DNA of 64,000 bases from an uncultured Roseobacter sp. (GTDB lineage Bacteria > Pseudomonadota > Alphaproteobacteria > Rhodobacterales > Rhodobacteraceae). The DNA lies in assembly GCF_947496515.1 (NCBI RefSeq), contig NZ_CANMDB010000003.1:186001-250000 (forward strand). Reading direction: 5' to 3'. Position numbers and translations under genes: made by a program. The notes under the pieces were generated by a model, which worked only from the letters and a program-made list of their open reading frames with translations, did no database searches and was not told the origin of the DNA. This document shows, in pieces, positions 17,402-44,082 of the stretch (positions are counted from its first letter, which is position 1; every line of letters begins with the position of its first letter).

Positions 17402-17422
17402 CAAGAACGTTCAACGTTCTTG
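17402..17422. repeat. Perfect 21-bp inverted repeat after uraH
   Basis: Arms CAAGAACGTT and AACGTTCTTG around a single C, beginning 3 bp after the uraH stop. A further CAACGTTG follows at 17424-17431. Position suits a terminator for uraH, but there is no T-tract, and it also lies 55 bp before deoC. It belongs to the covariant hairpin family found at 20949, 36848 and 44063. Confidence 0.6.
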
Positions 17423-17476
17423 CCAACGTTGCACACCCGTGCCACCCTCTGCGCCCACAATAGCGGTAGGATCGCG

Positions 17477-18481
17477 ATGCCAGCCCAGACGACCCACACG
17501 CCCGCAGCGACGCAGACCGCGCAACTGCCGCAGATCCATGAGCCGCGCAATCCCGGCATGCCGCTCGATCTCGACTGGGTGCGCGCGCTGCAGGCCAATA
17601 CTTCGGCCATCGAACGCCGTGCGGCCAGCCTGCCCGCCCGCCGATCTGTCAAGAAAGCGCATCAGGCGGCTTGGCTTTTGCGCGCTGTCACCTGCATCGA
17701 CCTCACCACCCTTTCGGGCGACGATACGGAGGCGCGGGTGTTGCGGCTTTGCGCCAAGGCGCGTCAGCCTGTGGCGCGTGCCGTGCTCGACGCGCTCGGC
17801 ATGGGTCCGATCACCACCGGCGCGGTCTGTGTCTATCACGAGATGATCCCCGCGGCGGCGCGGGCCTTGGAAGGCACGGGCATCCCTGTGGCTGCCGTCA
17901 GTACGGGCTTTCCTGCGGGCTTGTCACCGCTGCACCTGCGCATCGCGGAGATCGAGGAAAGCGTGAAGGCCGGCGCGGCAGAAATCGACATCGTCATCTC
18001 CCGACGCCATGTGCTGTCCGGTGACTGGCACGCGCTCTACGAAGAGATGCAGGCGTTCCGCGCGGCCTGCGGCGAGGCGCATGTGAAGGCGATCCTGGCG
18101 ACGGGAGAGCTGGGGTCTCTGCGCAATGTGGCGCGCGCCTCGCAGATCTGCATGATGGCGGGGGCGGATTTCATCAAGACCTCCACCGGCAAGGAGAGCG
18201 TGAACGCGACGCTGCCGGTGACGCTGGTGATGATCCGCGCCATCCGGGATTATTACGCGCGGACGGGGTTCCGGGTGGGATACAAGCCCGCAGGCGGGAT
18301 TTCCAAGGCGAAGGATGCGATCACCTATCTGGCCATGATCAAGGAAGAACTGGGCGATCGCTGGCTCAGGCCCGATCTTTTCCGCTTTGGTGCATCCTCG
18401 CTGCTGACCGACATTGAGCGGCAGCTGGAGCACCACGTGACGGGCCATTACTCTGCCGGATACCGCCATGCGATGGGCTGA
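17477..18481 (+). CDS. deoC: Deoxyribose-phosphate aldolase
   Basis: A 334-residue class I aldolase cleaving 2-deoxyribose-5-phosphate to glyceraldehyde-3-phosphate and acetaldehyde. The Schiff-base lysine is K234 in DFIKTSTGKESVN, and the second active-site lysine lies in VGYKPAGGISK. It is longer than E. coli DeoC (259 residues) because of an N-terminal extension of about 70 residues, as in eukaryote-like members. The ATG at 17477 is chosen; the frame is open far upstream but runs across uraH and the hairpin. The next gene, an aldehyde dehydrogenase, starts 39 bp downstream, so acetaldehyde oxidation may be coupled. Confidence 0.92.
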   Translation: MPAQTTHTPAATQTAQLPQIHEPRNPGMPLDLDWVRALQANTSAIERRAASLPARRSVKKAHQAAWLLRAVTCIDLTTLSGDDTEARVLRLCAKARQPVARAVLDALGMGPITTGAVCVYHEMIPAAARALEGTGIPVAAVSTGFPAGLSPLHLRIAEIEESVKAGAAEIDIVISRRHVLSGDWHALYEEMQAFRAACGEAHVKAILATGELGSLRNVARASQICMMAGADFIKTSTGKESVNATLPVTLVMIRAIRDYYARTGFRVGYKPAGGISKAKDAITYLAMIKEELGDRWLRPDLFRFGASSLLTDIERQLEHHVTGHYSAGYRHAMG

Positions 18482-18520
18482 GCAGGTGGCGGGATACGCA
18501 ATCTCAGAAAGGGTGATGCC

Positions 18521-20863
18521 ATGACAATCGCCGAGCTGTTCGAGACGATGGAATATGGTCCCGCGCCCGAGGCGGCGGGCGAGGCAATCGCCTGGCTGGA
18601 GGCGCGGGGTCGCTGCTTTGGTCACTTCATTGACGGTGCCTTTACCGAGCCGGGCGCAGGGTTCGAGAGCCGTAACCCCGCCACTGGCGATGTTCTGGCG
18701 ACGCTGACGCAAGGGGCGCAGGCGGACGTCGATGCCGCGGTCAAAGCCGCCCGTAAGGCGCAGTCCAAGTGGGAGAGCCTGGGCGGCCCCGGCAGAGCGC
18801 GCATCCTCTACGCGCTGGCCCGGCTCCTGCAGAAACACAGTCGCCTCTTCGCCGTTCTGGAAACGCTGGACAATGGCAAGCCGATCCGGGAAAGCCGCGA
18901 CATCGACGTCCCCCTGGCGCAACGGCATTTCTACTACCACGCCGGTATGGCGCAGCTGATGCCCGAGGCGCTGCAAGACCACGAGGCTCTGGGCGTTTGT
19001 GGTCAGATCATCCCGTGGAACTTTCCGCTGCTGATGCTGGCGTGGAAGATCGCGCCCGCGCTCGCCATGGGCAACACGGTGGTGCTGAAACCAGCCGAGT
19101 ATACCTCGCTCACGGCGCTGCTTTTTGCAGAGATCTGTCGTGATGCGGGCCTGCCTGCGGGGGTGGTCAACATTGTGACGGGTCATGGCAGCACGGGCGA
19201 GATGGTCGTGGGCGCGGAGGTGGACAAGATCGCCTTTACAGGCTCCACCGCCGTGGGCCGCCGCATCCGCGAGGCCACGGCGGGCAGCGGCAAGGCGCTG
19301 ACGTTGGAGCTGGGTGGAAAATCCCCCTACATCGTGTTTGACGATGCCGATCTGGATTCGGCCGTCGAGGGGCTGGTGGATGCGATCTGGTTCAACCAGG
19401 GTCAGGTCTGCTGTGCGGGATCACGGCTGTTGGTGCAGGAACCCGTGGCGGAGCTTTTCTACACCAAGTTGCGCGCGCGGATGGACAAGCTGCGTGTCGG
19501 CGATCCTCTGGACAAGAGCATTGATGTGGGAGCAATCGTTGATCCGGTGCAGCTGCGCGCAATCGCGGAGGCGGTTGAAGCGAACACCGCCGGGCAGACC
19601 CATGTGGCGGCGACCCCGCTGCCGGGTGAGGGCTGTTTTTACCCGCCGACGCTGATCACCGGTTTGAGCCCTGCCGATCCGCTCATGCAGGAGGAGATCT
19701 TTGGCCCCGTCCTCGTCGCCACCACCTTCCGAACGCCGGAGGAGGCGGTCAGCCTGGCCAACAATACCCGCTACGGTCTGGCCGCCACCGTGTGGAGCGA
19801 GAACATCAACCTTGCGCTTGATATCGCCCCGAAGCTTGCCTGCGGCATTGTCTGGGTGAACGGGACAAACATGATGGACGCCGCCGCGGGCTTCGGCGGG
19901 GTCAAGGACAGCGGCTTTGGCAGGGAAGGCGGGTGGGAAGGGCTCAGTGCCTATACCCGTCCGAAGCGCCGGCGCATGGTGCTCAAGACATCTCCACCGA
20001 TGCAGGGCGATGGTGCCCCGGCGGATGTGATCGACCGGACGGCCAAGCTCTATATCGGGGGCAAACAGGCCCGGCCCGACGGCGGATATTCCGCGCCGGT
20101 CTGGGGCAAGTCGGGCGTGCGTCTGGGCGAGGCCTCTCTGGCCAACCGCAAGGATCTGCGCAATGCGGTGGAGGCGGCGCAGGCTGCCCGTGGCTGGTCC
20201 GGAACAACGGGGCATTTGCGCGCGCAGATCCTCTATTATCTGGCCGAGAACTTGGCAGCGCGTGCCGACGGTTTTGCAGGGCGCATCGACCAGATGGTGG
20301 GCGGCAAACGCGGTGCGCGCGAGGTGGAAACCGCAATAGACCGGCTCTTTACCTATGCTGCCTGGGCGGACAAATACGATGGGCAGGTGCACGGTGTGCC
20401 GATCCGCGGCGTGGCGCTGGCGATGAAGGAGCCCGTGGGCGTGATCGCCGCCATCTGCCCCGACGATGCACCGCTGTTGGGTCTCATCTCTTGCATGGCA
20501 CCCGCTATCGCCATGGGCAACCGCGTGATCGTCAGCGCGTCTGAGCCTTTCCCGCTGGCGGCCACGGATTTCATCCAGGTGCTGGAGACGTCGGACATTC
20601 CAGCGGGGGTGGTCAACATCCTTACTGGACCGCACGCCGATGTGGCACCGCATATGGCGGGCCATATGGACATCGATGCGGTGTGGTGCTTTGGCACAGA
20701 AGCTCTGAGCGCCCAGATCGAACGCGCCAGTGCGGCCAACCTGAAACGCACGTGGGTCAACAACGGCATGGCCCGCGACTGGATGGGACCTGCCGGACAG
20801 GGTCAGGAGTTTCTGCAGGCCGCAACCGAGGTCAAGAACATCTGGGTGCCCTACGGCGAATGA
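18521..20863 (+). CDS. ALDH16-type two-domain aldehyde dehydrogenase
   Basis: A 780-residue protein with two aldehyde dehydrogenase units in tandem. The first (about 30-490) has IIPWNFPLLMLAWKIAPALAMGN, TLELGGKSPYIVFDDADLDS and NQGQVCCAGSRL with C297/C298, so a catalytic cysteine is present. The second (about 515-780) repeats the fold (PVGVIAAICPDDAPLLG) but shows no cysteine loop and is shorter. This is the ALDH16 layout, in which the second unit is a non-catalytic dimerisation domain. The substrate is undefined for the family. Adjacency to deoC suggests acetaldehyde or a deoxyribose-derived aldehyde. AAAGGGTG precedes the ATG. Confidence 0.88.
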   Translation: MTIAELFETMEYGPAPEAAGEAIAWLEARGRCFGHFIDGAFTEPGAGFESRNPATGDVLATLTQGAQADVDAAVKAARKAQSKWESLGGPGRARILYALARLLQKHSRLFAVLETLDNGKPIRESRDIDVPLAQRHFYYHAGMAQLMPEALQDHEALGVCGQIIPWNFPLLMLAWKIAPALAMGNTVVLKPAEYTSLTALLFAEICRDAGLPAGVVNIVTGHGSTGEMVVGAEVDKIAFTGSTAVGRRIREATAGSGKALTLELGGKSPYIVFDDADLDSAVEGLVDAIWFNQGQVCCAGSRLLVQEPVAELFYTKLRARMDKLRVGDPLDKSIDVGAIVDPVQLRAIAEAVEANTAGQTHVAATPLPGEGCFYPPTLITGLSPADPLMQEEIFGPVLVATTFRTPEEAVSLANNTRYGLAATVWSENINLALDIAPKLACGIVWVNGTNMMDAAAGFGGVKDSGFGREGGWEGLSAYTRPKRRRMVLKTSPPMQGDGAPADVIDRTAKLYIGGKQARPDGGYSAPVWGKSGVRLGEASLANRKDLRNAVEAAQAARGWSGTTGHLRAQILYYLAENLAARADGFAGRIDQMVGGKRGAREVETAIDRLFTYAAWADKYDGQVHGVPIRGVALAMKEPVGVIAAICPDDAPLLGLISCMAPAIAMGNRVIVSASEPFPLAATDFIQVLETSDIPAGVVNILTGPHADVAPHMAGHMDIDAVWCFGTEALSAQIERASAANLKRTWVNNGMARDWMGPAGQGQEFLQAATEVKNIWVPYGE

Positions 20864-20948
20864 CCTGAAGGGTTCAGGCAACCGCCGCCTGACCTTGTTT
20901 CGGCGGCGATGCCCGGGCCGCAGTGCCTGCAGTTTCAATTGGCGGTGG

Positions 20949-20970
20949 CAAGCGTTTTCGAAAACGCTTG
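20949..20970. repeat. Perfect 22-bp palindrome between convergent genes
   Basis: Arms CAAGCGTTTTC and GAAAACGCTTG with no spacer, followed by GGGCGCCCGG. It lies in the 203-bp gap between the ALDH16 stop and the convergent protease gene; nothing else is seen in that gap. It is a member of the covariant hairpin family described in the findings, and a bidirectional terminator is the simplest role. Confidence 0.65.
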
Positions 20971-21066
20971 GGCGCCCGGCCACAGAGGGAGTGCGTTGGA
21001 GTGGGGGCTGTTCCCCGCGATGCGGTAAGTACTTAAGCGCTAGATCTGACGTGTCCCGACGGCCGG

Positions 21067-22386
21067 CTAGTTTCCTGGGCTGGTCTCCAGACCTTCGGGC
21101 TGGCCCACCACAACGAAATGCAACCCGTCCGGGTCCAGCAACTCATCCGCGACCCGGGTCACGTCTTCCAGCGTGACCGCCTCGACCCGGTCGTTCCGGG
21201 TCGCGATGTAGTCGATGGGTAGGCCCAGCATCTGCATGCCCACCATGATCCGCGCAATGGGGCCATTGCCGTCGAACCGCAGTGGATACGCGCCGGTGAT
21301 GTAGGTCTTGGCGTCCTGCAATTCGGCTTCGGACACACCCTCTGCCGCTGCCTTTTCCCATTCGTCCCGAATGACCGTGATGGCTTCCGCGATGCGGTCA
21401 TTGGCGGAGCTGATAGAGCCTAGGTAAACCTCCGCCAGATCCTTGGCCGCCAGATAGGAATAGACGCCGTAGGTCAGGCCGCGCTTGGCGCGCACCTCGT
21501 CCATCAGACGGCTCTCGAACGATCCGCCGCCCAGCACGTGGTTCAGGACCAGCGCGGTGAAGTAATCGGGATCGTCCTGCGCGATGCCGCCGTGACCAAA
21601 GATCGCCACCGATTGCGGCGTTTCGAAAGGCACCACGGTGGTGCCGGGTGGGATGTCGACCTCGATGCGGGGCGGCATCGGTGCACCTTCCGCGGGCAGA
21701 CCGGCCAGCAGCTCGTCCATCAACGCGGCCAGCTGCTCGGGTGTGATATCCCCCACGGCACCGATATAGATCCGGTCCCGGGCCAGAACCGCCCGGTGGG
21801 CGTCCAGCAGATCCGCGCGGGTCAGTGCTGTCACGCTGTCTTCGGTTCCGTTCAGCGAGGTGGCATAGGGGTGGTCGCCAAAGGCGATCTGATCGAAGGC
21901 GCGGGAGGCGAGCTCATTGGGATCCTTTGCGTCAGACCGGATCCCTGACAGCACCTGTTCACGTACCCGGTCGATGGCCTCCGCGTCGAACCGCGGTTCC
22001 TTCAAGGCCGCGCGCAGCAGATCCACCGACGCTTCCTTGTTTTCGGTGAGAAACCGGGCGGAGACAGAGAGCGCATCATCGCCGACGTCAAAGCTGAAGG
22101 ACGAGGCCAGCGCCTCGGTCGCCCGGGCAAATCCGCGGGCATCCATATCGGCGGCCCCTTCCTCCAGCAAAGCCGTCATCAGGTTGATGGCCCCGCGTTT
22201 GCCGGGTGCATCGAGCGAGGCACCGCCGCGAAAGCGGATCTCAAGGGCTACGAAAGGGATCGAATGATCCTCCACCAGCCAGGCGGTCAACCCGCTGTCA
22301 GAGGTGACTTCCTGGATGTCTACCTCGGCCCGAGCGGGCAGGCTGACCAGTAAAACGGCGCAGATCGTGCTCAGAAAACGGATCAT
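21067..22386 (-). CDS. M16 peptidase-like protein lacking the zinc motif
   Basis: A 439-residue secreted protein (signal peptide ending near ARA, residue 20) with two M16 domains. The HxxEH zinc motif expected near residue 70 is replaced by NLMTALLEEG, so it should be inactive. The C-terminal substrate-binding segment RAKRGLTYGVYSYL is kept. Inactive M16 proteins pair with active ones, and its start overlaps the stop of the active partner by ATGA, supporting a periplasmic heteromeric protease or chaperone. Confidence 0.87.
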   Translation of the reverse strand: MIRFLSTICAVLLVSLPARAEVDIQEVTSDSGLTAWLVEDHSIPFVALEIRFRGGASLDAPGKRGAINLMTALLEEGAADMDARGFARATEALASSFSFDVGDDALSVSARFLTENKEASVDLLRAALKEPRFDAEAIDRVREQVLSGIRSDAKDPNELASRAFDQIAFGDHPYATSLNGTEDSVTALTRADLLDAHRAVLARDRIYIGAVGDITPEQLAALMDELLAGLPAEGAPMPPRIEVDIPPGTTVVPFETPQSVAIFGHGGIAQDDPDYFTALVLNHVLGGGSFESRLMDEVRAKRGLTYGVYSYLAAKDLAEVYLGSISSANDRIAEAITVIRDEWEKAAAEGVSEAELQDAKTYITGAYPLRFDGNGPIARIMVGMQMLGLPIDYIATRNDRVEAVTLEDVTRVADELLDPDGLHFVVVGQPEGLETSPGN

Positions 22387-23717
22387 TGGGTCACCTCCTC
22401 CCGCATCAGCCAGCCGGTGACAGAGGCGCGCCTGTCCAGCACATCCCGCGCGGCGGCGACAATATCTTCCTCGGTCACGGCCGCCAGAATATCGGGCCAG
22501 GCCTGCACGTCCTCTACCGTCAGCCCGGAGGCGAGCGCCGCCCCATAGCGATTGGCAATCCGGTCCACGTCATCGCGGGCGTAGATCTGATCGGCGCGGA
22601 TCTGCATCTTGATCCGGTCCAGTTGCTCCGCATCCACACCGTCAGTCAGGAACTGCGCGACGGCCGCATCCATGGCGTCCTCGGCTTCCTGCAGGCTGAC
22701 GCCCGGGCGTGGCACGACGATCAGGTTGAACGTCGTATCATCCAGCGACATGCCCCGGTAGAACGCCGCAGTATAGGTGGCAATCTGAGTGTCGAACTGC
22801 AGGGCATCCGCCAGATAGGACGTCGTCCCGCCGCCCAGCACCTCCGCCAGAATGGTCAGGGCAGCGGCGGCCTCCTGATCGCCCGCGTCCCGCTCTGGCG
22901 CGAGATACGACCGGCGCACGTAGGGCTGTGCCACCCGCGCATCGCGAAAGATCAACCGGCGCTCCGCCGTTTGCGGTGGCTCTTCGGTGCGCAGGCGCTC
23001 CGGCAGGTCTGGATTGGCCGGGATGACACCGTAGTATGTCTCCGCCAGGGCGCGCACCGCGTCAGGTTCCACATCGCCGGAGACGACGAGGATCGCGTTG
23101 TTGGGCGAATAGTATGTCTCGTAAAAGCCCATCACGTCGTCCATGTCCAGCGTCTCCATTTCGTGCATCCAGCCGATGATGGGGACCGCGTAACGATGGT
23201 TGAGATATTGTGCGGCGGAGACCTGCTCGCCAAAGAGCGCGTTGGGGTTGTTCTCCGTGCGCTGGTTGCGTTCCTCGATGATCACGCCGCGTTCGGTGCG
23301 GATGTTCTCGTCGGTCAGGCGGATGTTGCGCATCCGGTCCGATTCCATGGACATCATCAGTTCCAGACGGTCGGCGGCCACGCGCTGGAAATAGGCGGTG
23401 TAATCGTAAGATGTGAACGCATTGTCCTGCCCGCCGTTGCGCGCCACCGTGGCCGATAGCTCTCCCTCTTCGAGCGTTTCGGTCGCCTTGAACAGCAGAT
23501 GCTCAAGAAAATGCGCCACACCGGAGGATCCCTTGGGCTCATCGGCGGAGCCTGCACGGTACCAGACCATATGCTGCACGACAGGCGCGCGGTGATCCTC
23601 GACCACCACGACCTGCATGCCATTGTCGAGGGTGAAGCTGGTCACGGCTTCCTCCTCCGCGGCCAGTGTGAGCGGCAGCAGCAGAAGCGAGGCGACAAGC
23701 GCGAAAGATCGGATCAT
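22383..23717 (-). CDS. M16 family zinc metallopeptidase, active subunit
   Basis: A 444-residue pitrilysin-family protease with signal peptide (MIRSFALVASLLLLPLTLAAE) and the inverted zinc motif HFLEH in GVAHFLEHLLFKAT. The downstream glutamate lies in TERGVIIEERNQRTENNP. It probably degrades peptides in the periplasm together with the inactive homologue encoded next to it (4-bp overlap). Natural substrate unknown. The cluster with DUF3035 lipoprotein, lspA and purH reads in one direction, separated from the lipoprotein gene by 115 bp without a recognisable gene. Confidence 0.9.
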   Translation of the reverse strand: MIRSFALVASLLLLPLTLAAEEEAVTSFTLDNGMQVVVVEDHRAPVVQHMVWYRAGSADEPKGSSGVAHFLEHLLFKATETLEEGELSATVARNGGQDNAFTSYDYTAYFQRVAADRLELMMSMESDRMRNIRLTDENIRTERGVIIEERNQRTENNPNALFGEQVSAAQYLNHRYAVPIIGWMHEMETLDMDDVMGFYETYYSPNNAILVVSGDVEPDAVRALAETYYGVIPANPDLPERLRTEEPPQTAERRLIFRDARVAQPYVRRSYLAPERDAGDQEAAAALTILAEVLGGGTTSYLADALQFDTQIATYTAAFYRGMSLDDTTFNLIVVPRPGVSLQEAEDAMDAAVAQFLTDGVDAEQLDRIKMQIRADQIYARDDVDRIANRYGAALASGLTVEDVQAWPDILAAVTEEDIVAAARDVLDRRASVTGWLMREEVTQ

Positions 23718-23832
23718 GACAGGTCCTTTGTTGACGGGCGGTTCAACACCTTAGGCGAGGAGATACGTCCCCGCGGCCCGCGTTCAAGGCGCGCTGTCAC
23801 GAATGTGAGGGACATGGCCCCCGCCGCCAGGT

Positions 23833-24330
23833 TCAGCCGGGCGGGAAACTTGGGGTCCGCGCGCCCGCCCTGCGCCAGCGCGCGGCCTCTGCCCGCGCGT
23901 CCAGAGCCTGACGCCGGTAGGCCCGCAGATAGAGATCTTCGGGGAAGAGCCGGAACTGAGTCAGTCGTGACTGACGGCGGCGGAACTCCGCATCCGACTC
24001 GGCCAGCGTCTGGCGGATGTTGGGGGTAATGCCAAAGCGGTTGGCGGCATTGACCAGCGCGCCATCGGTCGCCGGGACCGCCGTGCCCGTGGAGGGGCGT
24101 CCGCCCAAGGCAATCACCGCATCATCCAGCGGATTGTTATCCGTCAGATTGGCCTGCCCGGGCGTGGGCGAGGGCAGCGTGCGCAGGTCATCGGGCGTTT
24201 GCAGCGGCGCTTTGGGTTCGATTGCGAACTCATCCGGCCCGCGCGTGTTGGAGCGCAAGTCCCGCAGGCCCTGGTTCGCACAGGCGGACAGGCAGGCGGT
24301 GATCAGGATGAGGGCCAGTATCCGGCGCAT
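23833..24330 (-). CDS. DUF3035 outer-membrane lipoprotein (BamF-like)
   Basis: A 165-residue lipoprotein: the signal peptide [17 protein letters not shown] has a lipobox LSAC with the lipidated cysteine at C17. The mature start contains [17 protein letters not shown], the conserved motif of DUF3035, a family described in alphaproteobacteria as an accessory (BamF) of the beta-barrel assembly machine. The rest is charged and poorly conserved. It lies 51 bp after lspA, whose enzyme would process its signal peptide, in the same direction. BamF membership is by recognition, not proof of function. Confidence 0.75.
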
Positions 24331-24381
24331 GTCAGGTCTCCTCGCGATTGTTGCGTTGATAGCGCGAGCCGCCGGGCAATG

Positions 24382-24867
24382 TCACTGGCCTTTTTTGCGG
24401 GTGCTGCCGGGGTCCGGCGCGAGAAACACCAGCCCGATGGCGCCCGCAAAGATGAACACATCCGCCAGGTTGAACACAAAGGGGTTGTCGATCCCGCAGC
24501 AGGACATGTTGAGGAAATCGAGCACATAGCCGTAGAGCACCCGATCGAGCACATTGGCCAGCGCGCCGCCGATGAGCAGCCCCGCACCCGCCAGCGCCCA
24601 AGGTCCGGGCTGCTGTCGCCGCACCCAGATCAGCACGCCGGTGCAGATCGCCAGTGCCAGCAGGATGAGGATCCAGCGGCTGGCTTCCGATCCGTCCGAG
24701 AAGAGACCAAAGTTGATGCCCCGGTTCTCGCCGTAGCGAAAGTTCAGCACCGGTGGCAGCACGTCGATGGCGCGGATCCGGGCCAGCTCCATCGTGTGGA
24801 TCACCAGATACTTGCTCAGCTGGTCAAGCACAAAGGCCGCGAGGGCCGTCAGGGCGAGGATGCGCAT
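24382..24867 (-). CDS. lspA: Lipoprotein signal peptidase (signal peptidase II)
   Basis: A 161-residue inner-membrane aspartyl protease with four hydrophobic segments that removes signal peptides from diacylglyceryl-modified prolipoproteins. The catalytic aspartates are D108 in GALANVLDR and D136 in [11 protein letters not shown]. An N-terminal LDQLSKYLV is typical. It follows purH by 17 bp and precedes a lipoprotein gene. Length is normal for the family. Confidence 0.94.
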
Positions 24868-24884
24868 GGTCTCGGTCCCTCGCG

Positions 24885-26471
24885 TCAGTGGCGGAAATGC
24901 CGCATGCCGGTCAACACCATGGCAAGCCCCAGGTCATCTGCCGCGGCGATGACGTCATCGTCCCGCATTGAGCCACCCGGCTGGATGAGCGCCGTCGCCC
25001 CTGCCTCGGCGGCGGTGATCAGCCCGTCCGCGAAGGGAAAGAAGGCATCGGACGCCACGACAGATCCTTGGGTCAGGGGGCTGGGCAGTCCCATGGCCTC
25101 GGCCATGTCCTGCGCCTTGCGCGCGGCGATCCGGGTGCTGTCCACCCGGCTCATCTGTCCGGCACCCACGCCCACGGTAGCACCGTCCTTGACGTAGATG
25201 ATGGCGTTGGACTTGACGTGTTTCGCAACCGTCCAGGCGAACAGCAGATCGGCCATTTCCTGCTCGGAGGGCGCGCGTTTCGTGACGATCTTCAGATCAT
25301 CGGGCGACAGGGCGCCCACGTCCTTGTCCTGCACGAGATACCCCCCCGACACCTGCCGGACGGCAAGACCGGGAGCTGTGGGATCAGCGAGACCGTCCGT
25401 GGTCAGGAGCCGCAGGTTCTTCTTCGCGGCGAAGACCGCGCGCGCGGTCTTGTCGGCGCCCGGGGCCACCACCACCTCGGTAAAGATCTGCGTGATCGCC
25501 TCTGCGGTCGGGCCATCGAGCGGTTGGTTCAGCGCAATGATCCCCCCGAAGGCGGAGGTGCGGTCGCAGTCGAAGGCGCGGGTGTAGGCCTCCTGCAGGG
25601 TCGCACCGCGCGCCACGCCGCAGGGGTTGGCGTGTTTTATGATGGCGCAAGCCGGCCCGTCCGCGGGATCGAATGCACTCACCAGCTCAAAGGCCGCATC
25701 GGTGTCGTTGATGTTGTTATAGCTCAGATCCTTGCCCTGATGCTGCTGTGCCGTGGCCACGCCCGCGCCTTGCGTGCCATCCCTGTAAAAGGCCGCGGCC
25801 TGGTGGGGGTTTTCGCCGTAGCGCAGTTTTTGCACGAGCGCGCCGCTGAAACTGCGCCGCCGGGGGGTGCCGCCTGCTTTACCGGCCATCCAGGTGCTGA
25901 CAGCGCTGTCGTAGGCTGCCGTGCGGGCGTAGGCCGTCTGGGCCAGCCGCTGCCGCAGCGCATAGGTCGTCTGACCGTCCTGCGCGTCGAGCTCCGTTAG
26001 CACGGTGTCGTAGTCCTCCACATCCACCACCACCGTGACAAAGCCGTGGTTCTTGGCCGCCGAACGGATCATCGCCGGCCCGCCGATGTCGATGTTCTCG
26101 ATCACCTCGTCGTAGGCGGCCCCCTGGGCCACCGTCTGCTCGAACGGGTAGAGGTTCACCACAACCAGGTCGATGGCGCCGATGCCGTGGGCCTCCATGG
26201 CGGCTACATGGGCGTCATTGTCCCGCAGCGCGAGCAGCCCGCCGTGCACCACCGGATGCAGCGTCTTGACGCGCCCGTCCATCATCTCGGGAAAGCCCGT
26301 CACCTCCGAGACATCGCACACCTCAAGCCCCGCCTCGCGCAGCGTCGTTGCCGTCCCCCCGGTCGAGAGAAGCTCGACCCCCCGCGCGGCCAGGGCGGTG
26401 GCGAAATCCACCAGTCCGGTTTTGTCGGATACGGAAAGCAGCGCACGGCGCAACGGGGCAAGGTCGGTCAT
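24885..26471 (-). CDS. purH: Bifunctional AICAR transformylase/IMP cyclohydrolase
   Basis: A 528-residue enzyme for the last two steps of IMP synthesis. Residues 1-200 form the MGS-like IMP cyclohydrolase domain ([48 protein letters not shown]). The rest is the formyltransferase with the catalytic [11 protein letters not shown]. The ATG at 26471 gives the standard N-terminus [19 protein letters not shown]; the frame extends upstream into the heparinase-like gene, so the longer start is rejected. It follows that gene by 13 bp and is followed by lspA. Confidence 0.95.
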
Positions 26472-26484
26472 AATGCGGGGTCCC

Positions 26485-35009: not shown

Positions 35010-35072
35010 CGATCCGGTGAGGTTTTGGCTCTAGCTTTTCGCCAGACGTCACCGCGCGAAAAGGCAAATACC

Positions 35073-35597
35073 ATGCCCCATCAGGCCGGATCGGACCCTC
35101 AGACAACGCCCGGGCTGGTAGCGGGCGACATCGACGGGGTCCTGTCGGAGATCAAGGCGCATAGTGCCGCCGCCGGTTCGCTGCTGAACGCCGCGCCCTG
35201 GGCCATACGTCCCCGTCGTGGACCGGCAGCGCCCCTGAGACTGCGAGAAGCACTGGCCTTGCCGCCGCGCCCTACGCCTCGGGAAGAGCACGTGGACAGA
35301 CCAGCCCCGGATAGGGAGCAACCGCTCGCTGATTGGATCGCGGCGCGCGCGGGGGCAGAGGAGATCCCCTACGATGCAGCGACCGAGGGGCTGGTGCTGG
35401 TGTGGGACGACAGCGCGCCTTCTGCCGATCCGCCTCAGATTACCCTGTCGCCCGTGCCCGGCCAGCCTGAAAGGGTGCGAATCGCCCTGAACGGTGAGGC
35501 CGTGGCCGAAATACCGGATGCGGCGGATCTGCGCGCCGAGGACATCGTGCTTCTGCCGCTCAGCAAAGCCGTGTCTGTGGGGCTCGAAGAGGTCTGA
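35073..35597 (+). CDS. Hypothetical protein with a small acidic beta domain
   Basis: A 174-residue protein that I cannot assign to a named family. The first 100 residues are low in structure and rich in P, A and R. Residues about 115-174 look like a compact beta domain (LVLVWDDSAPSADPPQITLSP, VRIALNGEAVAEIPDAADL, EDIVLLPLS). That pattern resembles modules I have seen next to RTX repeats in Rhodobacterales proteins, but here it stands alone without glycine-rich repeats. No signal peptide is seen. The ribosome site is weak (AAGG). Confidence 0.6.
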   Translation: MPHQAGSDPQTTPGLVAGDIDGVLSEIKAHSAAAGSLLNAAPWAIRPRRGPAAPLRLREALALPPRPTPREEHVDRPAPDREQPLADWIAARAGAEEIPYDAATEGLVLVWDDSAPSADPPQITLSPVPGQPERVRIALNGEAVAEIPDAADLRAEDIVLLPLSKAVSVGLEEV

Positions 35598-35643
35598 ACC
35601 ACCAATCGCCGGTTCTGCGATTGTGGTGCAAACACCATTTGCA
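35598..35643 (+). terminator. Hairpin directly after the hypothetical gene
   Basis: ACCACCAATCGC (35598-35609) pairs with GCGATTGTGGT (from 35617) in an 11-bp stem with one bulged C, and a short GCAAA/TTTGC repeat follows. It begins at the stop codon and lies 130 bp before rpsO, so it may separate rpsO transcription from the inserted genes. There is no T-run. Confidence 0.5.
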
Positions 35644-35776
35644 TTTCGCGCCGCGCGCGCCTATACGCGCCCATCGCCCGAAACTCGCATGAGCTTCGGG
35701 ACCCCCTCCACGGGCCTGTGCTGGACGACATCCCGGCCTGCGCCTTGACCGAAACACAGATGAACAGGAGCCCCCG

Positions 35777-36046
35777 ATGTCGATTACTGCCGAAGAAAAA
35801 TCCCGCGTGATGAAGGAATACGGAACCAAGGAAGGCGACACAGGCTCGCCCGAGGTTCAGGTTGCCATTCTCAGCTCGCGGATCGCGACCCTGACCGAGC
35901 ACTTCAAGACCCACAAGAAAGACAACCACGGTCGCCGCGGTCTGCTCAAGATGGTGGCGACACGCCGTAAGCTGCTCGACTACGTCAAGAACAAGGATGA
36001 GGACCGCTACAAGGATCTCATCAAGCGCCTCGGCCTGCGCCGCTGA
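35777..36046 (+). CDS. rpsO: 30S ribosomal protein S15
   Basis: An 89-residue S15, exactly the usual length, binding the central domain of 16S rRNA. The conserved stretches are [36 protein letters not shown] in the N-terminal half, [19 protein letters not shown], and the C-terminal RLGLRR. AGGAG lies 8 bp before the ATG. A terminator-like hairpin follows and pnp comes 1.5 kb later. In E. coli the rpsO-pnp pair is adjacent and autoregulated; here two extra genes separate them. Confidence 0.97.
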
Positions 36047-36069
36047 GCCAACGTGCATTAGCACCCAGC

Positions 36070-36124
36070 ATCGGGGAGACGGATTCAAACGGCGCGCTAC
36101 GGCGTCGCCGCTCTCCCCGGTTTT
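36070..36124 (+). terminator. Terminator-like hairpin after rpsO
   Basis: CGGGGAGACGG pairs with CCGCTCTCCCCG (one bulge), with an inner GGCG/CGCC pairing, followed by GGTTTTGG. It starts 24 bp after the rpsO stop and probably ends most rpsO transcripts before the lipoprotein gene. Confidence 0.65.
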
Positions 36125-36159
36125 GGATCTTTCCTCCGCGCCATCTCGGTCGGTCCTAA

Positions 36160-36699
36160 GTGAAACAGCTAGCTCTTCTTTCGATATGTACCGCCGTGAT
36201 GGTTGGCTGCGGTAGCACGGATACGAGCCGGAATAAGAAATCCGTCGAATTCGGCGACGGAACCGTGACGTTCTACGACTTCCGTGATGTAAGTGCTCTG
36301 CATCGTAGCGCATTTCCAATGCCTGCCGGTGAAAGCATCTATATGTTTAACTTCACCGGACCTCGGGCGACCATTACAACGTCCGACGGCACGGTCGTCA
36401 AATACACGGGCAGCTACGCGGAAAGCTGCGGCAAAGGTCTGGATCCCGAACAATACCAAAACAAGGCGCTTTTCAGCGAGTGCTTCAACAAGATCCAGAG
36501 CGCTCAGAAGCGGCTTGATCGTTCGTCACGACCGGGGTTTGAGCAGCTCATTGCTCTTGGGGAGCGGGCTGTCAAAGCGGAAGGCTCCTGTACATGGACA
36601 GGGTACGATCGCCAATTGGACCGACAGTTCCGCTCCGTAGGTGCTCTGGCCCGGAGCGATGACCAACGAGTGTTCTTTGCGCGCTTGCGCTGCCAATAG
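36160..36699 (+). CDS. Hypothetical lipoprotein of foreign composition
   Basis: A 179-residue protein starting at a GTG, with signal peptide KQLALLSICTAVMVGC and a likely lipidated C17. The mature part begins with a Ser/Thr/Lys-rich linker and has four further cysteines (ESCGKG, SECFNK, GSCTWTG, RLRCQ), so disulfides are possible if it is periplasmic. I do not recognise the family. Base composition is visibly lower in G+C than the neighbours: the 60 bases 36181-36240 hold 32 G+C. With its place between rpsO and pnp this suggests recent acquisition. Confidence 0.6.
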   Translation: MKQLALLSICTAVMVGCGSTDTSRNKKSVEFGDGTVTFYDFRDVSALHRSAFPMPAGESIYMFNFTGPRATITTSDGTVVKYTGSYAESCGKGLDPEQYQNKALFSECFNKIQSAQKRLDRSSRPGFEQLIALGERAVKAEGSCTWTGYDRQLDRQFRSVGALARSDDQRVFFARLRCQ

Positions 36700-36847
36700 A
36701 GCGCCCGCCATGGCCCACCTCAGAGTGTCAGCGATCTTCTGAGGGGTCCTTGTGCGAGCGAGGTCGCTCCGCACGTGCGTACTGATCTTCACGGTCCACG
36801 GTCTCTTTTCGTCCACCCTATCCCGTCCGACGGTACCAACGGCGCTC

Positions 36848-36867
36848 AACCGCGTTGGAACGCGGTT
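36848..36867. repeat. 20-bp inverted repeat (9-bp arms)
   Basis: Arms AACCGCGTT and AACGCGGTT around GG, in the 243-bp gap between the lipoprotein and channel genes. TTTTCCCCGCCC follows. It is a member of the covariant hairpin family; the copy at 44063 shares the CCCCGC context. Nothing else was recognised in this gap. Confidence 0.6.
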
Positions 36868-36942
36868 TTCCCCGCCCGACCGTTGGACATCGGATCGCGC
36901 GCTGCTTAGATCAGACCAGTGCGCGCAGTATCAGGAAAGCCC

Positions 36943-37383
36943 ATGCCCGTTCTATTGCAGATCGCCTTCGGCAGCATCGTCCTGCTGGTCTCGGCGGCGC
37001 TCCACCTGCTGGTCATCGCGCGGCTGGTTCGTCACCTGCGCCAGCACGACCACTTTGCGCCGACACGCCCGACACGTCACCAGCTCACGGGCGCCTGCAT
37101 CCTGTTTTTGCTGCTCGTGGCGTCGCATACCGCCCAGATCTATATTGCCGCCTTCGGGCTCTGGCTGATCGGGGCGTTGAGCGGTTATGAGGCGCCCATC
37201 TACTATGCGCTCGTCACCTACACGACCGTGGGCTACGGCGATCTTGTCCTCAGCCCGGACCACCGCATCGCGGGGGCCATGATCTCTTTCACCGGCATCC
37301 TGATGTTCGGCATGACCACGGCCTTTGTCGTCGGTCTGCTGACCCAGATCTTGGGCGAGCCGACCCCCCGCAGGCGCGACTAG
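36943..37383 (+). CDS. Ion_trans_2 potassium channel-family protein
   Basis: A 146-residue inner-membrane protein with three hydrophobic helices and a pore loop. The selectivity filter TVGYGD lies in YYALVTYTTVGYGDLVLSPDH, after helix VASHTAQIYIAAFGLWLIGAL and before AMISFTGILMFGMTTAFVVGLL. The filter is that of K+-selective tetrameric channels. No RCK or cyclic-nucleotide domain follows, so gating is unknown. The ATG at 36943 has AGGAAAG just upstream; a start at 36919 is less likely. It lies 172 bp before pnp. Confidence 0.85.
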   Translation: MPVLLQIAFGSIVLLVSAALHLLVIARLVRHLRQHDHFAPTRPTRHQLTGACILFLLLVASHTAQIYIAAFGLWLIGALSGYEAPIYYALVTYTTVGYGDLVLSPDHRIAGAMISFTGILMFGMTTAFVVGLLTQILGEPTPRRRD

Positions 37384-37502
37384 ACGCCCCGCCGACCCCC
37401 TCTTTTCATGGCCCCCACTCTCGTGTAGGTACGCGCAATCTGACAACAGGCGCCCGGACCTCAGCGCCAGACGAAACCGTTGTCCAGGACGATACCGAGG
37501 TC

Positions 37503-37539
37503 AGGGGGAATACGCCCCCTATGCAATGGCCCGCGGGCC
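37503..37539 (+). promoter_or_regulatory. Twin hairpins in the pnp leader
   Basis: AGGGGG/CCCCCT with a 6-nt loop (37503-37520) and the 12-bp palindrome GGCCCGCGGGCC (37528-37539) lie just before the GAGGAA ribosome site of pnp. In enterobacteria a leader stem is cut by RNase III so that PNPase can repress its own message. A similar role here is inferred from position only. Confidence 0.5.
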
Positions 37540-37555
37540 TATTTGAGGAACCTAG

Positions 37556-39691
<2,136 letters not shown>

Positions 39692-39711
39692 CCTGCTCCG
39701 GCTGAGCTGAC

Positions 39712-39749
39712 AAAGCGCCCGTTGCCAGCAATGGCGGCGGGCGTTTTCC
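39712..39749 (+). terminator. Rho-independent terminator of pnp
   Basis: GCGCCCG pairs with CGGGCGT around an inner GCCAGCAATGGC hairpin, followed by TTTTCC, 20 bp after the pnp stop. Confidence 0.75.
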
Positions 39750-39853
39750 GTGACGCACCACGGCACGGAGCAGTTGCATAAGACGTCCACCAGGTGCTAT
39801 TGCCGCGATCTGTCATATAACTGACGTGATTTTGTTACGCTGGCGCCATTCTA

Positions 39854-40699
39854 ATGTTGCACGTTTACCCATCGGGCCTGCAGGGCCTTCCGACCGATAC
39901 CGCCCCGGATGGCAGCATCGCATATTGGCGCGAACAGGATAGCCGAAACCCGGATCTGCTGAAGGCTCAGGCGGATTTTGCCCATCCTGAGCTGCAACCC
40001 AATCAAAAGCTTCTGAAAAAGGCGCGCCAACGGTTCATCTTTCGTCACACGACCGAGACGGGCGCAGTGGTCATCAAGCTCTTTCCGCTCAGCTTCATCG
40101 GGTCGCGGCTGCGGCATCGCAAATACGCCTACCGTGAATTCGTGAACATGATCGAAGCGCAGAAAATGGGCCTGCCGACGCCGGACGCCATCGCCTTTCT
40201 GGAAAAGCGCAAGACCGGTCTGGTAAATTGCTCCGGCCTCATCCAGCAAAGCCTGACCGATCACACGGATCTGCTGCGGCTCTACCGCGACGGCGCGATG
40301 CGCTATGACGAGGTCGCGCGTCTGGGTCAGGAGACGATCCTGCGGTTCTACAATGCGGGCGTCAACCACTGCGATCTGCGCGACGAGAACATCATGCTCA
40401 ACCCCGAAACGGGCGATCTGCGGGTGATCGACTGGCAATACGCCGTCTTTATGGAACCACGCGCCCCCTGGCTGCTGGAGCATCTGGCAGCGTTCTTCAT
40501 CCGGCTGGCCCCCGATGAGGAGCACGCGACACTGCTGGAGGGCTGGCTCGCGGATCTGCACAGCAAGGGCGGGCATCCTGAGCCGCTGCCGCTTTTCCGC
40601 GCGCGGGTCACGGCGCTGATCGCGGCACACACCCGGATGCGCAACCGCCTCGTGCTCCAGCCCATCAAACTGGAAGAAGGCGCTGCCGCAACGTCATAG
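39854..40699 (+). CDS. Kdo/LPS kinase-like protein kinase-fold protein
   Basis: A 281-residue protein of the lipopolysaccharide kinase (WaaP/KdkA/InaA-like) fold. The catalytic loop is NHCDLRDENIML with D174, and the metal-binding aspartate lies in LRVIDWQYA. The upstream lysine region is TGAVVIKLFPLS. Such kinases phosphorylate Kdo or heptose in the LPS core. The N-terminal part (YPSGLQGLPTDTAPDGSIAYWREQDSRN) is not diagnostic. It stands alone between pnp and the SGNH hydrolase gene, so the sugar acceptor is not defined. Confidence 0.75.
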   Translation: MLHVYPSGLQGLPTDTAPDGSIAYWREQDSRNPDLLKAQADFAHPELQPNQKLLKKARQRFIFRHTTETGAVVIKLFPLSFIGSRLRHRKYAYREFVNMIEAQKMGLPTPDAIAFLEKRKTGLVNCSGLIQQSLTDHTDLLRLYRDGAMRYDEVARLGQETILRFYNAGVNHCDLRDENIMLNPETGDLRVIDWQYAVFMEPRAPWLLEHLAAFFIRLAPDEEHATLLEGWLADLHSKGGHPEPLPLFRARVTALIAAHTRMRNRLVLQPIKLEEGAAATS

Positions 40700-40768
40700 A
40701 CGGATTGCTTTGGCCATACGCCCCCGCGCCTCTAGGCTGAGGCCGGTATTCAGTGGGGGAATCACCAT

Positions 40769-41767
40769 ATGACCAAGCGATATCTGGCTTTGATCCTGGC
40801 CGCCGGGCTGGCGAGTGCCGCGCAGGGCAGTACGCTGTCGTCCGAGTTTTCGAGCTATTACGCCTTTGGTGACAGTCTCAGCGACGATGGCAAGGCACCC
40901 GCGCTGCCCGCGCCCAGCGTCGGCGGGCGGTTTTCCAACGGGCCTGTCTATGCGGAGATCATCGGCGATGTCTTTACCGCGGCCCGGCTGCCCGAGTTCA
41001 ACTTTGCTTTCGGCGGGGCGACCGCCGGTGACCTGAACGACAATGACCTGGTGACACCGCCCGCGCTCTCCGTGCCCTTCGGTACCTTCGGGCGGCAGGT
41101 GAATACCTTTCTGACGTCGGGTGCCGCGGTTGTCGCCGGTGACACGCCACTGGTCTCCGTTCTCTTCGGCGCCAATGATTTCCTGCAGAACGCGAGTGAG
41201 GCGGATTTCAACCCGGTCGCCGTTGCCCGCAAGGTGGTGGAGAACATCAAGGAGATCTCCAAGATCGCCAACTTTGACAATTTCCTCGTCTTCAACCTGC
41301 CGGATTTCAGCTTGATCCCGGCATCGAGCGGCCTCTCGGACGTCGAGCGCGCCGCGTTGCGGGGCGGCACACAGCTCTTCAACGCCACGTTGGCGGCAGA
41401 GCTTGCCGCTCTTCGGGCGGTAGACGATCCCAGTTTGAAATTTGAGATCTTCGATCTGTTCGGCGAGTTCAATCGCCTGCTGGCTCAGGCGGGCGATCTG
41501 AACCTGCGGCTCGACGGGATCTGCACGCCGCGCATTGTGGATCCGACGGATTTTAACATCTGTCCGACCGCGGAGGTGGCGGACGCCTTCTTCTTTGTGG
41601 ACGGGGTGCACCCCAACCGGATTGTACACGCTGAGATCGCAGAGACGGTGATTGCCGGTCTCGATGGTCTGCCAACGCCGGTCCCGCTGCCCGCAGCGCT
41701 GCCATTCCTGCTGATGGGGTTGGGCGGCTTCGGTCTGGTCGCGGCGCGCCGCAGCCGCAAGGTCTGA
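40769..41767 (+). CDS. Secreted SGNH/GDSL hydrolase with VPLPA-CTERM anchor
   Basis: A 332-residue esterase/lipase-like protein. After the signal peptide (MTKRYLALILAAGLASAAQG) comes the nucleophile block FGDSLSDDG with S36, FGANDFLQN (block III), and DGVHPN with D278 and H281. The C-terminus is VPLPAALPFLLMGLGG, then a helix, then ARRSRKV, a VPLPA-CTERM sorting signal of the PEP-CTERM type, which implies processing by an exosortase-like protease encoded elsewhere. A bidirectional terminator follows. Substrate unknown. Confidence 0.88.
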   Translation: MTKRYLALILAAGLASAAQGSTLSSEFSSYYAFGDSLSDDGKAPALPAPSVGGRFSNGPVYAEIIGDVFTAARLPEFNFAFGGATAGDLNDNDLVTPPALSVPFGTFGRQVNTFLTSGAAVVAGDTPLVSVLFGANDFLQNASEADFNPVAVARKVVENIKEISKIANFDNFLVFNLPDFSLIPASSGLSDVERAALRGGTQLFNATLAAELAALRAVDDPSLKFEIFDLFGEFNRLLAQAGDLNLRLDGICTPRIVDPTDFNICPTAEVADAFFFVDGVHPNRIVHAEIAETVIAGLDGLPTPVPLPAALPFLLMGLGGFGLVAARRSRKV

Positions 41768-41770
41768 TGT

Positions 41771-41806
41771 AAAAAAAAGCCCCGGGGTCCAATCCCCGGG
41801 GCGTTT
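41771..41806. terminator. Strong bidirectional terminator
   Basis: GCCCCGGGG pairs with CCCCGGGGC around a 6-nt loop, with GTTT on the + side and eight As (T-tract for the minus strand) on the other. It serves the convergent hydrolase and peroxiredoxin genes. Confidence 0.9.
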
Positions 41807-41826
41807 CGCAGCCGCTGGCGCAGGCC

Positions 41827-42480
41827 TTATTGAGGCGCTTTGGTGGTGCGCAGATACGGCAGGATCTTGGTGAACTCGCCGAATTTGGCCTTGGCATCCT
41901 CATCCGACACGGTGGCGGGGATGATCACGTCATCGCCCACGTTCCAGTTCGCCGGTGTCGCCACGCCCTTGCCGGTGGACATCTGCAACCCGTCGAGCGC
42001 GCGCAGCACCTCGGCAAAGTTGCGCCCCACGGTCATCGGATAGGTCATCGACAGCTTCAGCTGCTTATCCGGCCCGATGATGAAAACGGACCGCACGGTT
42101 GCGCTGTCCGCAGGTGTCCGACCGTCGGGCAGATAGGCTTCGGCTGGCAGCATGTCGAACGCCTTGGAAACCTCCAGCCCGTCATCGGCGATGATCGGAA
42201 ATCCCGCCTTGGCGCCGCCAAAGGTCTCGATATCGCCTTTCCATTTCTTGTGGTCCTCCACGCCATCGACGCTGACGCCGATCACCTTGGTACCGCGTTT
42301 CTCCCATTCCTCGGCCAATTGTGCCACAGCGCCGAATTCGGTGGTGCAGACAGGGGTGAAATCCTTGGGGTGCGAAAACAGGATGGCCCAGCTGTCACCG
42401 ATCCAGTCATGCAGCTGGATCGTGCCATGGTCGGTCTCGACGGTGAGGTTCGGAATGGTGTCGTTAATGCGCAAGCCCAT
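41827..42480 (-). CDS. 1-Cys peroxiredoxin (Prx6 type)
   Basis: A 217-residue AhpC/TSA-family peroxidase with the peroxidatic C45 in FTPVCTTEFG, and the Prx6-type C-terminal domain with SMTYPMTVGRNFAEVLR. No resolving cysteine is visible, so an external reductant such as glutathione is likely. It removes hydrogen peroxide and organic peroxides in the cytoplasm. It is divergent from the aldehyde dehydrogenase gene across 134 bp. Confidence 0.92.
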   Translation of the reverse strand: MGLRINDTIPNLTVETDHGTIQLHDWIGDSWAILFSHPKDFTPVCTTEFGAVAQLAEEWEKRGTKVIGVSVDGVEDHKKWKGDIETFGGAKAGFPIIADDGLEVSKAFDMLPAEAYLPDGRTPADSATVRSVFIIGPDKQLKLSMTYPMTVGRNFAEVLRALDGLQMSTGKGVATPANWNVGDDVIIPATVSDEDAKAKFGEFTKILPYLRTTKAPQ

Positions 42481-42614
42481 GGTGTCCTCCGGTGCAATGC
42501 TTGGTGACTCGCTGTTAACCTAATCGCTTCGCGCCCGGGTTTCATCCCCTCACTTGCGGACAGATCCCCGGGGTGACAGGGTGCCCCCAATCTCGCACAG
42601 GAAGGATCAATCGC

Positions 42615-44042
42615 ATGCTGGAAAAACGTGATTTCTATATCGGTGGCGGGTGGACTGCCCCCGCCACGCCCAAGGATTTCGCCGTGATCGACCCATCGAC
42701 AGAGGAGCAATGCGCCGTCATCTCGCTCGGGGATCAGGCTGATACGGATGCCGCAGTGGCCGCCGCCCGCGGCTCTTTCGATGGCTGGTCGCAGACGTCG
42801 CGCGGGGAACGTGAGGCGCTTTTGCGCAAGCTTCTGGCGATCTACGAGGACCGCGCCGAAGAGATGGCCCAGGCCATGTCGCTGGAGATGGGCGCGCCCA
42901 TCGAGCTGTCGCGCGCGCAGCAGGTGGGTGCGGGCAGCTGGCATATGAAAGGGTTCCTCAAGGCCTTCGAGACCTTCAGCTTCGAGCGGGATTTCACCGC
43001 GACCGAGAAAACCCTGCTGGAGCCTATCGGTGTCTGCGCACTGATCACCCCGTGGAACTGGCCGATGAACCAGATCGTGCTCAAGGTGATCCCGGCGCTG
43101 GCCACCGGCTGCACAGTGGTGCTGAAACCCTCCGAAGTCGCACCGCTCTCGGGGCATCTTTTCGCGGAGTTCGTGCATGAGGCGGGGTTCCCCGCGGGCG
43201 TCTTCAACCTGGTGAACGGCGATGGTGCGGGCGTGGGCAGCCAGCTTTCCGCGCATCCGGGCGTCGACATGGTCAGCTTCACCGGCTCCACCCGCGCTGG
43301 CATCGCGATTTCCAAGGCCGCCGCCGATACGCTCAAGCGCGTCAGCCTTGAGCTTGGCGGGAAGGGGGCCAATATCATCTTCGACGACGCGCACCCCAAA
43401 GCGGCAAAACAGGGGGCGATCCGGTGCTTCCGTAACTCCGGCCAGTCGTGCAACGCGCCGACCCGCATGCTGGTGCACCGGTCGCGGTACGACGAGGCCG
43501 TGGCGACCGCCGCCGAGGTGGCGGAGGCGACCCACGTGGGGCCAGCGTCCGAAGAGGGTAAGCACATCGGTCCCGTGGTCTCCGAAGCACAGTTCGACAA
43601 GATCCAGAAGCTGATCGAGACCGGCATGGGCGAGGCGCGGCTGGTGGCGGGGGGCCTGGGCCGACCCGACGGGCTCAACCGGGGCTACTATGTGAAACCC
43701 ACGGTCTTCGCCGATGTGACCAACGACATGACCATCGCGCGCGAGGAGATCTTCGGCCCCGTCCTGTCGATCATTCCCTTCGATGAGGAGGCCGAGGCCA
43801 TCGCCATCGCCAATGACACCCCCTACGGGCTGACCAACTACATCCAGACCGAAGACGATGACAAGCGCCGCCGGGTCGCCCGACAGCTACGCTCCGGTAT
43901 GGTGGAGACAAACGGCCAGGGGTTCGCCCAAGGCTCGCCTTTCGGCGGGTACAAACAGTCGGGCAACGGTCGCGAAGGCGGTACGTATGGTCTGGAAGAG
44001 TTCCTGGAGGTCAAGGCTGTCTCCGGCTGGGCCGCGGAATAG
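42615..44042 (+). CDS. NAD(P)-dependent aldehyde dehydrogenase
   Basis: A 475-residue single-domain ALDH. The catalytic cysteine is C279 in NSGQSCNAPTRM; the general base lies in LELGGKGANIIFDD; the cofactor site shows LITPWNWPMNQIVLKVIPALATG. The start at 42615 follows AGGAAGGA and gives MLEKRDFYIGGGW; a GTG 14 codons upstream is rejected. Substrate unknown; the SCNAPTR loop is common in broad-range ALDHs. A 20-bp hairpin follows 20 bp after the stop. Confidence 0.88.
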   Translation: MLEKRDFYIGGGWTAPATPKDFAVIDPSTEEQCAVISLGDQADTDAAVAAARGSFDGWSQTSRGEREALLRKLLAIYEDRAEEMAQAMSLEMGAPIELSRAQQVGAGSWHMKGFLKAFETFSFERDFTATEKTLLEPIGVCALITPWNWPMNQIVLKVIPALATGCTVVLKPSEVAPLSGHLFAEFVHEAGFPAGVFNLVNGDGAGVGSQLSAHPGVDMVSFTGSTRAGIAISKAAADTLKRVSLELGGKGANIIFDDAHPKAAKQGAIRCFRNSGQSCNAPTRMLVHRSRYDEAVATAAEVAEATHVGPASEEGKHIGPVVSEAQFDKIQKLIETGMGEARLVAGGLGRPDGLNRGYYVKPTVFADVTNDMTIAREEIFGPVLSIIPFDEEAEAIAIANDTPYGLTNYIQTEDDDKRRRVARQLRSGMVETNGQGFAQGSPFGGYKQSGNGREGGTYGLEEFLEVKAVSGWAAE

Positions 44043-44062
44043 GCAGATGGGTCCGGGGCGCC

Positions 44063-44082
44063 AACCCGCTTGAAAGCGGGTT
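44063..44082. repeat. 20-bp inverted repeat after the aldehyde dehydrogenase
   Basis: Arms AACCCGCTT and AAGCGGGTT around GA. GGGGCGCC precedes it and CCCCGCGCCC follows. It is a member of the covariant hairpin family; read on the minus strand it ends in GGCGCC like the copy at 20949. It probably terminates the dehydrogenase transcript. Confidence 0.6.

Follow-up and report, generated by a model that had tools for sequence, protein, structure and literature searches.

What keeps a set of short palindromes alike in shape when their letters differ? The question is raised by four inverted repeats dispersed over a 64,000-nucleotide stretch of an uncultured Roseobacter sp. genome (hereafter the window), for which the original prediction had tentatively proposed an unlisted class of terminator or mRNA 3' end. 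At 17402, 20949, 36848 and 44063, positions and arms were found exactly as claimed (Table 1), all four repeats are intergenic by the called genes, and at least two lie right after a stop codon (17402 by 2 bp and 44063 by 20 bp). A T-tract is indeed absent after all four, though the repeat at 36848 runs into GGTTTTCC; GGCGCC adjoins 20949 on the forward strand and 44063 on the reverse strand, and GAGCGCC adjoins 36848 on the reverse strand, as had also been noted. No Rfam match was obtained within the window. The four palindromes are members of one class of 20–22 bp, nearly loopless and perfect, with the plan AA-N5-TT-(CG/GC)-AA-N5-TT. Two in-gene look-alikes had been omitted from the earlier list, as had two ordinary terminators with T-tracts (41779 and 63603), and the look-alike in purH may be a chance product.

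Table 1. Palindromes, in-gene look-alikes and other features of the window (R1, covariance model).
Feature	Positions	Strand	Sequence	Arms and centre	Form	R1 score	Setting
Palindrome	17402-17422	.	CAAGAACGTT-C-AACGTTCTTG	10-bp arms, 1-nt centre	single	19.9 bits (E 0.003), outside training set	starts 2 bp past stop of HIUase/transthyretin-family gene (17016-17399 +); ends 54 bp upstream of deoC (17477-18481 +)
Palindrome	20949-20970	.	CAAGCGTTTTCGAAAACGCTTG	11-bp arms, loopless (0-nt centre)	single	32.6 bits, part of training set	convergent gap between aldehyde dehydrogenase-family gene (18521-20863 +) and M16-peptidase-family gene (21067-22386 -)
Palindrome	36848-36867	.	AACCGCGTT-GG-AACGCGGTT	9-bp arms, 2-nt centre	single	26.3 bits, part of training set	tandem gap: 148 bp past weak ORF without Pfam match (36199-36699 +); 75 bp upstream of gene with ion-channel domain (36943-37383 +)
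Palindrome	44063-44082	.	AACCCGCTT-GA-AAGCGGGTT	9-bp arms, 2-nt centre	single	24.5 bits, part of training set	begins 20 bp past stop of aldehyde dehydrogenase-family gene (42615-44042 +); gap convergent with YkuD-domain gene (44366-44953 -)
Look-alike, membership uncertain	1254-1276	.	CAACGATTTTGGAAAAATCGTTG			20.3 bits	within ORF 185-1696, inside the span of its C-terminal match to the galactarate/altronate dehydratase domain
Look-alike	25432-25451	.	AAGACCGCGCGCGCGGTCTT			20.4 bits	within purH (24885-26471 -)
Ordinary G+C-rich hairpin with T-tract (terminator)	41779-41802						convergent gap of 59 bp
Ordinary G+C-rich hairpin with T-tract (terminator)	63603-63634						convergent gap of 85 bp
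Large protein	60450-63578	+					matches calcium-binding repeat and RTX-type models, below curated cut-offs

Shared plan and differing stems

Perfect palindromes (stem of at least 9, loop of 0–3) were counted in the gaps between genes over 864 kb of the same genome (the window and 40 stretches of 20 kb) and compared with first-order Markov copies of the same gaps. Convergent gaps hold 18 against 0.80 expected, tandem gaps 20 against 1.55 and divergent gaps 3 against 0.50, while two same-genus samples of 200 kb each contain 0 and 0, 3 and 1, and 0 and 1, respectively. Regarding the plan itself, a gapless alignment of 33 own-genome copies, left from 37 training candidates after four had been removed by eye as off-plan, has A3, T10, T11, A14, A15 and T22 conserved at 90% or more, with variable segments between them. 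Odd-centred copies such as the one at 17402 were excluded from the covariance model, yet this copy was detected by it. In a search that leaves the centre open, CG (120) and GC (42) together make up 162 of 181 T-NN-A centres, where composition predicts 47%. The stems are diverse, with 17 different 6-nt arms among 29 copies of the own genome, and stem sets seem genome-specific (GACTT/GAGTT in G233, A/T-rich in G153, GGCGC in G181), for which mutation bias could be an alternative source.

Around the palindromes, the outer positions 1–9 of 29 own-genome copies are 79–95% G+C, and within 60 nt of these copies GCGCCC is found 13 times against 3.0 expected. GGCGCC was rejected as a fixed tail or motif, being merely part of these G+C-rich flanks. 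An outer stem was rejected as well: individual folds had looked convincing, but the flanks of 100 clusters (-19.58) proved to pair no better than swapped flanks (-19.23, sd 0.42).

That every base change in one arm is matched in the other had been put forward as a sign of selection on structure. Matched changes in these repeats are circular evidence, because the repeats were found as palindromes, and the pairing was hence scored in patterns that do not require it. Among 40 own intergenic windows of the form A-N6-TT-NN-AA-N6-T, 29 have all six free pairs matched, one has five and ten have 0–3; over all rich-genome samples the counts are 170 with six, 6 with five, 6 with four and 34 with fewer, five of the six one-mismatch windows being of wobble type. 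In two same-genus controls, the same windows gave 0, 1 and 0 sites with six, five and four pairs and 19 with fewer. A second pattern, AAGNNNNTTCGAANNNNCTT, fixes 12 letters, not pairing, and leaves four free pairs to be scored. It occurs 82 times in nine other rich genomes, outside those sampled, and among the 73 of these sites that were listed, 68 have all four pairs matched, 4 have one mismatch and 1 is unrelated, against a mean of 3.7 fully matched sites (maximum 12) after shuffling of partners in 2000 runs. As many as 28 different arms are found among the 68 fully matched sites listed. The reversed pattern is absent from all nine rich genomes, and seven class-free genomes hold two sites of AAGNNNNTTCGAANNNNCTT, both imperfect. 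These nine genomes had been picked as rich by the covariance model, which selects for the presence of copies, not for the absence of intermediates.

Further support comes from an alignment of 13 arrays, in which three of the four palindromes are paired in 351 of 351 cells, a perfection that is partly by choice, because the arrays were picked as strings of palindromes. Both-sided changes affect 15 of 27 pairs and 32 cells in this alignment, and no one-sided (G-U) change occurs. The fourth palindrome, P3, was excluded from this count, its position being wrong in 4 rows of the automatic alignment; inspection by eye shows it to be perfect in 13 of 13 arrays. In a scan of viral contigs by a pairing-blind pattern, five contigs had chance matches, none of them perfect, and a sixth held a true array. 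The claim of matched changes thus stands in tests that do not require pairing, with the correction that "every" is too strong, as a few single mismatches exist (6 vs 170 and 4 vs 68). That the copies form one class with differing, covarying stems is supported, and in the covariance-model search proposed as a check, copy numbers proved patchy across genomes.

Arrays and distribution among relatives

In the relatives G067 and G077, up to four palindromes follow one another with spacers of 1–5 nt. The G067 arrays keep one palindrome order, in both orientations, each palindrome having its own stem, and the arrays of four in G077 are likewise in set order. Single palindromes account for 57 of the 99 clusters flanked by genes; of the others, 17 have two palindromes, 9 have three and 16 have four. 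Palindromes lying 78–176 bp apart in the same gap often have like stems, since 15 of 26 such pairs differ at 0–1 of 6 free positions (18% elsewhere), with the range set after viewing the list and the pairs hand-counted. The interiors of eight two-palindrome elements of G077 are mostly unrelated DNA (z below 2 for 24 of the 28 comparisons made). Pairs whose two palindromes differ by one compensated base pair and enclose unrelated DNA are, for example, L137:9760-9915, L141:9516-9658 and L139:9186-9359 in G077 and L009:15709-15901 in the own genome. With regard to pairing at a set distance the picture is mixed, as many other palindromes are single. A four-palindrome array was also seen on an IMG/VR contig (L236:8539-8632), just past a terminase large-subunit gene and before a portal gene, in a phage-like or gene-transfer-agent-like cluster. 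One G067 array, compared with plasmids and phages by BLAST, gave no match, and a search of five array-bearing loci with Rfam returned a tRNA only.

The distribution of the class is uneven. Counts of covariance-model rows, which cover both strands and are lower bounds, amount to at least 118 in the own genome, at least 126 in G020 and 13 in G039, and 18 congeners of the own genome have 0–3 weak rows each in a scan at E up to 1. At E <= 0.01, rows are present in 60 and absent from 235 of 295 genomes of the family, and 20 genomes reach 16 rows or more. The same pattern is found around G077, with at least 151 rows against 0, 0, 0, 0 and 3 in its five congeners. One array gap of G077 corresponds, by eye, to a short palindrome-free gap of about 19 bp in two congeners and about 57 bp in a third, these being the three in which the opposing neighbour gene was recognisable; the comparison covers a single locus, between divergent species (83–86% protein identity) rather than a clean strain pair. 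Orthologous HIUase loci in congeners contain one palindrome-like repeat (L075) and none in the others, and no same-genus relative of G067 for an orthologous-site comparison was present among 41 genomes. A search of the own genome for 16S rRNA gave none, and the family was named from HIUase relatives, of which 22 of 30 named ones were placed in Rhodobacteraceae by their titles; the bacterial family in question is thus probably Rhodobacteraceae. Sampling was unbiased for G000, G020, G002, G011 and 20 stretches of G067, while model matches guided the choice of the G077 stretches, of the other 11 of 31 G067 regions and of the stretches from ten further genomes.

Position relative to genes and competing explanations

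With genes called by a home-made codon-usage script (stops sure, starts approximate), the 99 clusters having genes on both sides fall 56 times in tandem, 40 times in convergent and 3 times in divergent gaps, in agreement with the claim that the class lies mostly downstream of genes. Stops border 96 of the 99, the nearest at a median of 21.5 nt, and 41 of the 56 tandem clusters are closer to the stop than to the start. T-tract terminators in five of the same samples lie at a median of 25 nt past the stop (n = 47, with 23 at 20–30 nt), and as the two distances are close, position alone is compatible with a 3'-end role. Such a downstream bias would suit T-tract-less bidirectional terminators or mRNA 3'-end stabilisers, in which the transcript would form a hairpin and the two-fold symmetry would serve both convergent genes. 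It would also suit them that the gaps of 28 checkable own-genome copies contain no T-tract terminator and that short hairpin clusters without a U-tract have, in the accessible text of one study, been proposed as terminators (PMC8355165). Within convergent gaps, however, the clusters show no preferred place between the two stops (their relative distance averages 0.46 in 15 own gaps, KS p 0.81, and 0.47 in 17 gaps elsewhere, KS p 0.96), an even spread which, compared with the 25-nt median of T-tract terminators, speaks against a 3'-end role. In tandem gaps they lean stopward (0.37 in 8 own gaps, p 0.23; 0.33 in 35 others, p 0.0015) and avoid the start side. Of the 81 own convergent gaps that reach 30 bp, just 16 hold a palindrome, and T-tract terminators are found in 0 of these 16 and 6 of the 65 others (p 0.59), too few cases for power. 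Beyond the TT that ends the stem, no T-tract directly follows the hairpin in 29 own-genome copies with flanks.

Several results weigh against an unlisted terminator class as the best reading: the even convergent spread, the absence of the class from 18 congeners together with its patchiness over the family, and the 32 both-sided against 0 one-sided changes in the arrays, since selection on an RNA helix would let G-U pairs pass. The array lying between the terminase and portal genes is also hard to place under this explanation, which we consider unlikely.

Quite improbable, in our view, is that the palindromes are neutral and were perfected by mutation alone. Template switching at quasipalindromes, which copies arm onto arm without selection or mobility, is known to make imperfect inverted repeats perfect (PMC7202029, accessible text) and may be the source of equal arms without selection; the rarity of intermediates noted above fits such a process, as does the scarcity of SbcD, which passed its cut-off in no more than 1 of the 42 family genomes examined, so that hairpin cleavage may be weak. 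This account nevertheless leaves unexplained the fixed AA/TT beside freely varying positions, the ordered arrays, and the presence of the class in one species and its absence from congeners; class-free species are also without SbcD, and template switching would not symmetrise an unpaired centre. Loss of SbcCD as a permissive cause was rejected, the family being without it regardless of the class. That the palindromes are targets of a dimeric DNA-binding or nucleoid protein reading the A/T positions and the centre is very improbable, despite the two-fold symmetric centre and a spacing of about one helical turn between the conserved A/T positions, as a dimer ignoring the N5 segment gives no reason for its palindromy, one reading it would not accept 28 different arms among 68 sites, and divergent, promoter-bearing gaps are nearly copy-free.

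A palindromic DNA element family as the favoured reading

We favour, by a slight balance of probability, a lineage-specific family of palindromic DNA elements whose expansion took place independently in certain lineages of a single bacterial family. Its units are nearly loopless perfect palindromes of 20–24 bp, single or in arrays of two to four. The direct basis for this reading consists of the fixed A/T positions with a variable but matched 5–6-bp segment, the symmetric centre, the missing intermediates, the set-order arrays in two relatives, the patchiness, the avoidance of promoters and the even convergent spread. Such a unit might spread and be recognised as a folded single strand or cruciform, in which case shape rather than letters would be kept. 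The arms would be equalised by the spreading process itself or by template-switch copying of one arm, and the copies surviving today would be those tolerated outside genes and promoters.

Since no mobilising enzyme was found, we infer, rather than observe, that the palindromes are probably mobile. The Y1 (PF01797/RAYT) transposase, encoded in 2 of the 17 rich genomes and in 4 of 14 others, is absent from the remaining 15 rich genomes, the own genome included, and was consequently rejected as the mover. No transposition event or target-site duplication was seen at the palindromes, the duplication having been looked for unsystematically, and stems shared at 78–176 bp with unrelated DNA between fit simple insertion poorly. 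The fuller proposal is of a new bacterial class of mobile palindromes conserved as a folded DNA shape and not as a sequence, whose arms change only together, which spreads by an enzyme or by replication itself, and which expanded independently in many genera; to this we give credence somewhat short of an even chance.

The nearest known kinds are REP/REPIN elements and mitochondrial hairpin elements, and the palindromes fall outside both definitions. With REP/REPIN (RAYT/Y1) they share being short, intergenic, numerous per genome, patchy and sometimes two per unit. REPs, however, share sequence within a genome, whereas the palindromes have differing stems, with only a common shape and A/T positions, and the Y1 transposase is missing from most of the genomes rich in them. 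MITEs are likewise small, non-coding, dispersed and present in many copies, but in the palindromes no shared interior, no terminal inverted repeats beyond themselves and no target-site duplication were seen. Unlike Rho-independent terminators, they have neither a T-tract nor a set position after the stop in convergent gaps. Intrinsic terminators without a U-tract are called I-shaped terminators. To judge from the accessible text on U-tract-less terminators and hairpin clusters (PMC8355165), the likeness lies in hairpins past stops, several in a row, while the palindromes differ in being nearly loopless, symmetric, evenly placed in convergent gaps and missing in congeners. Mitochondrial repetitive hairpin elements, double-hairpin elements and yeast GC clusters are described, in the text available, as dispersed and intergenic, with counts that vary between close species and a mobility that is unknown or debated (PMC2800124). 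Dispersal and uneven numbers in close species are thus common to both, but these elements are organellar and the palindromes bacterial, the accessible text makes no mention of compensated stems, and homology is not claimed. In a survey of 118,019 genomes, perfect inverted repeats peak after stops in Bacteria (PMC13155455); the accessible part of this account does not contain the palindrome class, and the portions of open-access literature searched gave no description of it.

If the favoured reading is true, these lineages offer a natural experiment in palindrome evolution, with hundreds of palindromes whose arms co-change and rich species beside class-free relatives. Two questions would become testable: whether perfect palindromes persist through selection on the folded strand or because one arm serves as template for the other, and what mobilises elements alike in shape rather than in sequence. 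It would also be a warning that arm covariation alone does not prove a functional RNA.

Finally, a sister type of hairpin was seen in G318 (L185:5267-5365 and L186:1432-1540), with conserved G-ACG-C / G-CGT-C centres and differing stems. Its oriented loop could separate a strand-specific from a DNA-level function. Two hairpins in one orientation are followed by two in the opposite one over about 100 bp, and in the G318 sample ACG/CGT loops occur in 7 of 11 looped intergenic hairpins.
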